A stretch of DNA of 64,000 nucleotides from Oscillatoria sp. CS-180. GTDB taxonomy: Bacteria > Cyanobacteriota > Cyanobacteriia > Phormidesmidales > Phormidesmidaceae. The stretch lies in NCBI RefSeq assembly GCF_028330965.1, contig NZ_JAQMUB010000052.1, forward strand, positions 1 through 64,000. The letters run 5' to 3'. Under the pieces are notes generated by a model, which saw only the letters and a program-made list of their open reading frames with translations, was not told the DNA's origin and searched no databases. Made by a program: the position numbers and the translations under genes. The stretch's first letter is position 1. Every line of letters begins with the position of its first letter. Of this stretch, positions 9,443 to 23,020 are shown piece by piece.

Positions 9443-9514
9443 TCAGAAGTTTTACGCACTTAACTTTCCTGAATATCAATTGACCTCTCTGAAACAGGAG
9501 ATAGAAGCACCATA

Positions 9515-9531: not shown

Positions 9532-9879
9532 ATGGTTTACATACAAGGTTTTGCTAAATACTTTTTGACGATCAGCATCCTGGGATATCTCAGCGCAACA
9601 GGGGCATCTTTTAGTAGTTCAGAATACGTTAGCGAACACTCCGAAGGAAGTGAGACAAGTCACAGAGGCAGCGGACGTCTGGTAACTCAGGCACCGCAAG
9701 AGACTTTTGATACCCTACCGACCTATCGAGGAACGGGACGTGCCAAAGAGCAGGACGATCCGGCTCTTTCTCATCGGGGTAGCGGGAGAGTGCGTATTCA
9801 CGTCGTTGACATGGACACAATCTCTTATCGGGGAAGCGGTCGAATTTCTCCTACACATCTCGATGTCGATTTTGCTTAA
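9532..9879 (+). CDS. patX: PatX-like exported precursor with four RG(S/T)GR motifs
   Basis: A 115-residue protein with an N-terminal hydrophobic export signal (about residues 7-25, FAKYFLTISILGYLSATGA). It carries four copies of the HetR-inhibiting pentapeptide: RGSGR at 45-49, RGTGR at 66-70, RGSGR at 82-86 and RGSGR at 100-104. Each is preceded by an aromatic or His residue (H, Y, H, Y) after Ser or Thr. The same pentapeptide ends PatS and occurs in HetN and PatX, and it binds HetR directly. The gene lies 394 bases upstream of hetR on the same strand, the typical PatX association. Each motif uses different codons, so it is not a recent nucleotide duplication. The spacers between motifs are acidic, unrelated and 11-16 residues long. 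Each motif could be released as a separate peptide (inference). Confidence 0.8.
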   Translation: MVYIQGFAKYFLTISILGYLSATGASFSSSEYVSEHSEGSETSHRGSGRLVTQAPQETFDTLPTYRGTGRAKEQDDPALSHRGSGRVRIHVVDMDTISYRGSGRISPTHLDVDFA

Positions 9880-22273: not shown

Positions 22274-23020
22274 CTCCCGCAAAAATACGGTATAGGATGC
22301 CGGGTCAGAGTTCAACCGTATTCAAGAGAAAACCTTGATGTAAGGGGTTAGGCTGTGTAGCAGCGCCATAAAACCCGTAGGGTGGGCACTGCCCACGCCC
22401 GACACCACCTTTAATAGCAATCTGGTTACGTTTTTAACGCTGGATTTTGGTGGGCAATGCCCACCCTACGGGGCTAGATGACTCCCGCAAAAATCGGTAT
22501 AGGATGCCGGGTCAGAGTTTAACCGTATTCAAGAGAAAACCTTGATATAAGGGGTTGGGCTGTGTAGCAGCATAAACCTGTAGGGTGGGCACTGCCCACG
22601 CCCGACACCACCTTTGATAGCAATCTGGTTACGTTTTTAACGCTGGTTTTGGTGGGCAATGCCCACCCTACGGGGCTATAAGCTTTTGTCTCGCTTTGTG
22701 GCGTAGCCTGCACTCTAGGTTTTGGTGGGCAATGCCCACCCTACGGGGCTGCCCACGCCCGACACCACCTTTAATAGCAATCTGGTTACGTTTTTAACGC
22801 TTATTTTGGTGGGCAATGCCCACCCTACGGAGCTAGATGACTAAAGCTATATAGGGTGGGCACTGCCCACGCCCAACACTACCCTTCAAAATTCGCACTC
22901 CAACATCCCAATGCTCCTCTAGGTAGCCTCACCCGCAAAGGTGAGCTTAAATAGAAGAAATTTGTTGAGCCATGATCCGTAGATGTCGGGTGGGCACCAC
23001 CCACGCCTAACATCATTGTC
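22274..23020. repeat. Tandem block of GTAGGGTGGGCA palindromic repeats
   Basis: Two near-identical units of about 208 bp start at 22274 and 22482. Each contains CTCCCGCAAAAAT, GGTATAGGATGCCGGGTCAG, GTAGGGTGGGCACTGCCCAC and TTGGTGGGCAATGCCCACCC. Partial copies follow near 22720-22830 and 22853-22880, and a diverged one near 22988. The GGGTGGGCA/TGCCCACCC parts are palindromic and resemble a repeat family seen in many cyanobacterial genomes. A run of GAATTCAAAA-type repeats at 23022-23055 ends the spacer. Confidence 0.85.

Follow-up and report, generated by a model that had tools for sequence, protein, structure and literature searches.

PatX is regarded as the oldest of the signals that act on HetR, and its role in filaments that form no heterocysts is an open question. 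In Oscillatoria sp. CS-180, an open reading frame (ORF) for a small protein with four RG(S/T)GR motifs stands upstream of hetR in the stretch of DNA under study (64 000 nucleotides, hereafter 'the window'). What kind of gene is this, are its four motifs accidental or maintained, and what would a cell gain from a precursor with several copies of a peptide that inhibits HetR? The analysis presented here establishes the gene, its conservation, its promoter element, its neighbour and the HetR pocket, and weighs several readings of its function.

Identification of a patX-type gene with four motifs

The original prediction, made from the sequence of the window, described a PatX-like precursor with four motifs beside hetR, and this observation is confirmed. 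The ORF and its motifs were reproduced (Table 1): a 115-residue protein carries four HetR-inhibitor motifs, preceded by H, Y, H and Y, the last motif being followed by 11 residues up to the C-terminus. Its placement just upstream of hetR is equally correct, since hetR starts 394 nt downstream and its product scores 541.7 bits against the cut-off of 489 of the HetR equivalog model. A six-frame search of the 64-kb window revealed no RG[ST]GR beyond these four, and a genome-wide search with the whole 115-residue protein gave a single match in the CS-180 genome. Chance is ruled out as the origin of the motifs, as the protein's own composition predicts 0.0017 motifs and as 200,000 shuffles of the sequence past residue 25 yielded no motif 199,641 times, one motif 359 times and never more than one. 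A DNA tandem repeat is likewise ruled out as their source, no repeat having been detected under the motifs of the window gene by a repeat search and by Tandem Repeats Finder; the codon set is different in each of the four copies.

PatX has reportedly been described by Elhai and Khudyakov in 2018 by a hydrophobic N-terminus, an RG(S/T)GR motif, a DIF1-type promoter and the company of HetR. The ORF encodes a small protein with the motif and a hydrophobic N-terminus, in a genome that has hetR, and on the basis of its position, hydrophobic N-terminus, motif and promoter it is assigned as a patX-type gene. The wording 'patX-type' is used because the protein scores 18.8 bits (E 0.002) with the NCBIfam equivalog model NF047413 (heterocyst_PatX), whose cut-off is 30, so that the gene is not called a member of that model. 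No genome among the 63 of the family reaches this cut-off, which 8 of 33 other genomes with hetR do reach (5/5 in family f31 and 3/28 in the rest), and a whole-genome search of the 63 family genomes gave only sub-threshold matches, the window gene being absent among them; at E up to 10, 23 of the 35 multi-motif PatX and 23 of the 28 single-motif ones are picked up by the model. With its cut-off reached by few of these genomes, the model is narrow. Family f31 (five genomes read) is taken for the Nostocales from its PatX scores and from the location of patX away from hetR. In a published survey, 12.0% of the genomes with hetR had no patX (PMC12756182); given a narrow model, such genomes may partly represent missed genes, although the model of that survey may differ from NF047413.

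PatS and HetN share with the window protein the RGSGR that inhibits HetR, but both identities were rejected. PatS is a peptide of 17 residues with its motif at the C-terminus, unlike the 115-residue protein, whose last motif is not terminal. Of the 35 multi-motif PatX, four match a PatS model weakly (best E 0.0035). HetN is a putative ketoacyl reductase, unlike the window protein, in which no Pfam family was found at E up to 0.01 and therefore no ketoacyl reductase domain.

Table 1. Features of the patX–hetR region; positions are those of the window, and residues and motifs are given in one-letter code.
Feature	Position	Strand	Remarks
TCCTGA, DIF1-like −35 element of the patX promoter	9467..9472	+	65 nt before the ATG
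TGAAAC, −10-like element	9490..9495	+	17 nt past TCCTGA
patX-type gene; its 115-aa product has a hydrophobic N-terminus and four RG(S/T)GR motifs	9532..9879	+	ATG start
Hydrophobic N-terminal segment, about residues 10–23, after Lys9; probable core of a Sec signal	9559..9600	+	From hydropathy
Motif 1, HRGSGR	9661..9678	+	Pentapeptide 9664–9678; unchanged in 8/8 genomes of the HYHY clade
Motif 2, YRGTGR	9724..9741	+	Pentapeptide 9727–9741; HYHY clade: Y in 8/8, T in 7/8
Motif 3, HRGSGR	9772..9789	+	Pentapeptide 9775–9789; unchanged in 8/8 genomes of the HYHY clade
Motif 4, YRGSGR	9826..9843	+	Pentapeptide 9829–9843; unchanged in 8/8 genomes of the HYHY clade
hetR, 311 aa	10274..11209	+	Pfam HetR_C and NCBIfam HetR over cut-offs; six pocket residues

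Promoter, N-terminus and gene neighbourhood

The DIF1 motif stands at a distance of 69 nt upstream of patX. In the window, the upstream region of patX is devoid of TCCGGA and has TCCTGA at −65. TCCGGA is the DIF1 motif of heterocyst formers (PMC7377430) and is the form found in f31. Of the 121 hetR-adjacent patX genes whose available upstream region is long enough, 120 have TCC[TG]GA no more than 75 nt before the start, usually at positions 58–65, against an expectation of 7.7 taken from DNA further upstream. Within 160 nt upstream of these genes, TCCTGA is present in 119 and TCCGGA in one; TCCGGA lies within 250 nt upstream in six patX genes, TCCTGA being the commoner element. At the spacing of 17 nt, an exact [CT]GTA[AT]C follows in 67 of 118 patX genes, and the TGAAAC variant of the window was seen seven times.

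The export signal first read into the N-terminus stands as a hydrophobic stretch, with the highest 12-residue hydropathy (1.75) at residue 11; that this stretch serves as a Sec signal and that the protein is exported is a probable interpretation of hydropathy alone. The same feature recurs in relatives, with an N-terminal hydropathy of at least 1.6 in 34 of 35 multi-motif PatX (none of which reaches 1.6 past its first motif) and a hydrophobic N-terminus in 27 of the 28 single-motif relatives tested, and a basic residue precedes the hydrophobic stretch in 27 of these multi-motif and 13 of these single-motif proteins.

The locus is bordered upstream of patX by the gene of a FAD-dependent oxidoreductase and downstream by those of a calcineurin-like phosphoesterase and a PAS histidine kinase. 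The spacer between patX and hetR contains one terminator-like and one promoter-like site, which is about the level of shuffled sequence. Further along the window (22384–23002), eight GGGN5CCC-type matches (GGGCACTGCCC, GGGCAATGCCC and one GGGCACCACCC) are grouped within ∼600 bases, in a cluster that resembles the HetR-site consensus. Contig C65 of the CS-180 assembly (71071–71880) contains a nifH match of 465 bits, over the NCBIfam cut-off, and the strain may thus fix nitrogen. The named hetR loci nearest to that of the window are Halomicronema and Leptolyngbya records, two genera that are not known to form heterocysts.

Motif number across the family and beyond

In the family of CS-180 (f1), 57 of 63 genomes were read, of which four gave too short a stretch, leaving 53 readable genomes; four others had no HetR_C match, and G013 and G007 were left out of the count, the stretch of G007 containing no PatX-like ORF. 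The number for G062 is a lower bound due to a contig end. The protein has one motif in four genomes, two in five, three in 27, four in 12, five in three and nine in two. Several motifs (2–9) are therefore present in 49 of the 53 readable genomes, versus 3 of 58 hetR-adjacent PatX elsewhere in the class, the other 55 having one motif. These 58 come from 86 genomes read out of 105 with HetR_C, and comprise every PatX found up to 1.6 kb upstream; eight further stretches were truncated, by contig ends or by the limits of the sequence retrieved, and 20 genomes had none, a class into which a PatX lacking an intact RG[ST]GR would also fall. The three multi-motif proteins outside the family (with 3, 5 and 8 motifs) belong to two genera of family f15 that stand together on the HetR tree, and all five PatX of f31 have one motif and TCCGGA. 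Multi-motif PatX is thus a family-wide, selectively maintained trait, with further cases in a second family, and the impression of a single odd gene conveyed by the original prediction has to be corrected. Its statement that such proteins normally carry one copy is valid outside the family, f31 included, but not inside it.

Named loci give a similar picture, as 43 of 80 named hetR loci have an adjacent PatX, multi-motif in 10 of these; one protein with two motifs, that of Lyngbya aestuarii BL J, apparently lies outside the clade. On the HetR tree (FastTree, 130 rows), the multi-motif label needs six changes, at least four of them on well-supported branches, which indicates that the multi-motif state was gained or lost repeatedly. 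In two relatives examined, one of them with nine motifs, PatX contains tandem DNA arrays of 48-bp and 36-bp units, so that motif number can grow by tandem duplication. The nine-motif PatX (loci L071 and L072 of G045 and G006) consists of seven D-headed RGSGR followed by two Y-headed ones, the 'head' being the residue that precedes the pentapeptide. Genome G162 has three separate PatX-like genes with one motif each, on contigs C35 and C211 (loci L177 and L304), two of which are upstream of hetR; this is an alternative route to more copies.

Selection on motifs and linkers

The five other genomes of the genus all keep four motifs in the same order, so that neither motif loss nor a broken frame is found in close relatives. 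Across the six genomes (window included), all 24 hexapeptide residues are invariant while 21 of the 24 corresponding codon columns vary; in the linkers, 3 of 35 ungapped columns are invariant. In five diverged pairs, the proportion of non-synonymous differences (pN) is 0–0.06 in the motifs and 0.40–0.65 in the linkers, with synonymous values (pS) of 0.63–0.82 in both. The close pair G001/G004 agrees, with a pN of 0 in motifs and 0.14 in linkers, and the close pair G002/G003 shows no separation (0.04 in motifs and 0.02 in linkers), its two apparent motif changes stemming from a switch between serine codons and thus silent at the protein level. Judged from these substitutions, the linkers evolve almost freely and the motifs are under strong purifying selection. 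The view that selection acts on the peptide and not on a repeated DNA unit is thereby upheld, by a pN far lower in motifs than in linkers together with the four codon sets and the lack of a DNA repeat.

Residues flanking the motifs and the HetR pocket

Conservation extends to the residue preceding the pentapeptide. Eight genomes, belonging to three genera, share the H-Y-H-Y order of heads, and seven of these also have T in motif 2. Over the 190 motifs of unique multi-motif PatX, the head is Y in 71, D in 47, H in 28, F in 25, W in 11 and another residue in eight, and the residue after the motif is I, V or L in 171, which might reflect a common cutting site. In single-motif PatX, H precedes 59 of 75 motifs, and 39 of 75 are followed by R or by the end of the protein. 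The series of heads begins with a polar residue and ends with an aromatic one in 9 of the family's 11 multi-motif genera (G062 dropped).

How HetR would read these residues can be approached from the Anabaena protein, in which the hexapeptide is held in the cleft of the hood domain with its amino-terminus clamped by E254 and D256; this cleft accepts XRGSGR with any X, whose side chain was reported to be without effect on binding, and peptides of seven or more residues are expected to clash in it (PMC4649674). From this clash it follows that the uncut precursor should bind HetR poorly and be inactive until cut. If the head residue is irrelevant to binding, something else must keep it constant at each position, namely a peptidase, transport or a second receptor. 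The HetR of the window has all six pocket residues (R223, E253, E254, D256, D270 and D278 in Anabaena numbering), so that inhibition of this HetR is expected of every motif once it is cut out.

Among 130 primary HetRs, R223, E253 and D270 are present in all, 107 have the sequence EELD, five have EELN and 18 depart at residue 254. The departures consist of S in five genomes of genus g2 (5/5, with one HetR_C match per genome), A or T in six Y-headed genomes of f15, T in two E-headed genomes, V in one Y-headed genome, T in one H-headed genome, Q in two genomes with D, F and Y heads and D in one genome with a non-adjacent PatX; they are found mainly in lineages with unusual heads.

CS-180 has a second HetR-like gene (contig C59:76966–77196; loci L002 and L050), with E254V and L255F and the rest of the pocket intact; the surrounding 16 kb showed no ORF with RG(S/T)GR. 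The further HetR-like proteins read in the family, 32 from 31 genomes, have V254-F255 in 28 cases, A-F in one, T-L with G256 in one (a protein of Leptolyngbya sp. BL0902) and E-L in two (genus g6), with R223, E253 and D270 kept in all 32. In G013, an incomplete genome, the V-F-type protein is the sole HetR_C match. Eleven HetR paralogues outside the family are mostly of the E-L type with N256, and none is V-F. A HetR devoid of E254 occurs in 13 of 18 genera with aromatic heads versus 3 of 31 without them, in a table that omits 15 genomes whose second HetR was unread. For single-motif PatX, heads other than H are found in 6 of 7 genomes lacking E254 versus 9 of 52 possessing it. A second HetR is present in 40 of 51 multi-motif versus 11 of 59 single-motif genomes, a strong link as far as raw counts go. 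When kinship is counted, three independent pairs on firm branches are left for the link between E254 and heads, and four pairs for that between the second HetR and motif number. Since independent pairs are so few, the association between E254 and heads is a lead only.

Proposed mechanism and alternative explanations

Taken together, the data make it probable that the patX-type product is an exported multi-peptide precursor, cut into X-RG(S/T)GR hexapeptides that inhibit HetR. We infer export, cleavage, binding and inhibition from work on Anabaena, where PatX is exported and depends on both its signal sequence and the peptidase PatP, and where HRGTGR, bound by HetR with a KD of 88 nM, frees it from DNA (PMC12756182). 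PatP (Alr1666) is listed among penicillin-binding proteins, as PBP10. On the strength of this listing, PF13354 is tentatively taken as the family of PatP, and seven PF13354 matches in the CS-180 genome would then be candidate PatP-family proteins. According to the proposed scheme, patX would be transcribed from its DIF1-like promoter, the Sec pathway would export the precursor, and cleavage outside the cytosol would yield four X-RG(S/T)GR hexapeptides, of which two begin with H and two with Y. These would spread through the filament and into cells, where they would occupy the cleft of the HetR hood domain and so detach HetR from DNA. With several copies, each precursor would give more signal and would provide peptides of at least two kinds. 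Candidates for the process regulated in this lineage are the formation of necridia or hormogonia and the nitrogen response.

Why a precursor should contain several motifs can be explained in different ways. The original prediction had left the choice between a dose-amplified signal and several peptides with different flanks. The latter fits better with heads fixed by position, while dose retains a place on account of the tandem arrays. A pure dose effect, whereby more motifs simply deliver more equivalent hexapeptides and the flanks are kept by the peptidase or by descent, is a real possibility, although short of probable: copy number ranges from 1 to 9 in the family, 36- and 48-bp arrays exist in two relatives, X is interchangeable for Anabaena HetR (PMC4649674) and multi-copy pheromone propeptides are known from RRNPPA systems (PMC9765709), but flanking residues are fixed by position amid linkers that vary almost freely. 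It is rather unlikely, in our judgement, that the heads constitute a code in which polar residues (H, D and N) address the canonical HetR and aromatic ones (Y, W and F) the V254-F255 HetR. The positional constancy of H-Y-H-Y, the order of polar and aromatic heads in 9 of 11 genera, the V-F type of 28 of 32 further HetR-like proteins with their preserved R223, E253 and D270, the distribution of E254-less HetR over genera and single-motif genomes, and S254 in all genomes of g2 all agree with such a code. Against it stand the paucity of independent pairs, aromatic heads in genera g6, g13, g48, g16 and g23 that have no such HetR and the reverse situation in g85, g78 and g63, a paralogue that is a candidate peptide receptor from its sequence only, and the reported indifference of Anabaena HetR to the X side chain (PMC4649674). 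The associated idea that one gene came to supply two classes of HetR ligands for two receptors (E254-L255 and V254-F255), as a two-channel code born of motif duplication and receptor divergence, is quite unlikely.

A different reading, which places the main action of PatX in this clade on a target other than HetR, e.g. in the periplasm or the cell wall, originates from Leptolyngbya sp. BL0902. Its patX (GFS31_32390) is in the same family as that of the window, multi-motif and directly upstream of hetR, but encodes three motifs (D-, I- and Y-headed RGSGR) in place of four with H and Y heads; no mention of the number of motifs in this PatX was found in the available part of its paper (PMC11298460). 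In transcriptomes of this strain, 428 genes were changed when patX was deleted and 993 when hetR was deleted; the strain lacking both was similar to the one lacking patX in two gene groups on which patX and hetR act oppositely, and the authors consider the effects of PatX as basically independent of HetR (PMC11298460). This result is evidence against PatX acting via HetR in the clade. It may reflect another target or a second receptor, or else an interaction that transcriptomes do not reveal in a strain with three HetR-like genes (PMC11298460). The place of PatP among penicillin-binding proteins also favours a target of this kind, but it is distinctly improbable, because the pentapeptide that binds HetR, the pocket of HetR and the location beside hetR are all exactly conserved. 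That the extra motifs are a functionless by-product of repeat slippage is scarcely conceivable, for although tandem arrays do occur in two relatives, the window gene contains no DNA repeat and its motifs are under strong purifying selection. An exported precursor of several HetR-inhibiting hexapeptides is thus the preferred reading.

Comparison with known systems and significance

PatX of Anabaena/Nostoc PCC 7120 resembles the protein of the window in its hydrophobic N-terminus, RG(S/T)GR motif, DIF1-type promoter and action with HetR, the last being predicted for CS-180, but it has one motif, with HRGTGR as the active peptide (PMC12756182), in place of four together with TCCTGA in the promoter. 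In the available parts of the literature searched, outside of which lie Elhai and Khudyakov 2018 and Zhang 2009, no description of several RG(S/T)GR motifs in one PatX was found, and multi-motif PatX may partly be in print already. The closest parallel is offered by the propeptides of RRNPPA systems (AimR, NprR, PlcR and Rap), which are exported, contain up to six identical or differing copies and are encoded beside the receptor gene (PMC9765709), so that the principle of a multi-peptide precursor is not new to bacteria; these systems, however, are those of Firmicutes, with receptors built of TPR repeats, and HetR is outside that family.

If the two-receptor reading were true, one gene would be enough for the clade to operate a peptide code with two channels. 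More generally, a clade with two to nine conserved, head-fixed peptides per precursor supplies natural variants that bear on the role of the head residue, on the cutting of the precursor and on whether it is the dose or the diversity of the signal that counts in a simple reaction-diffusion circuit.
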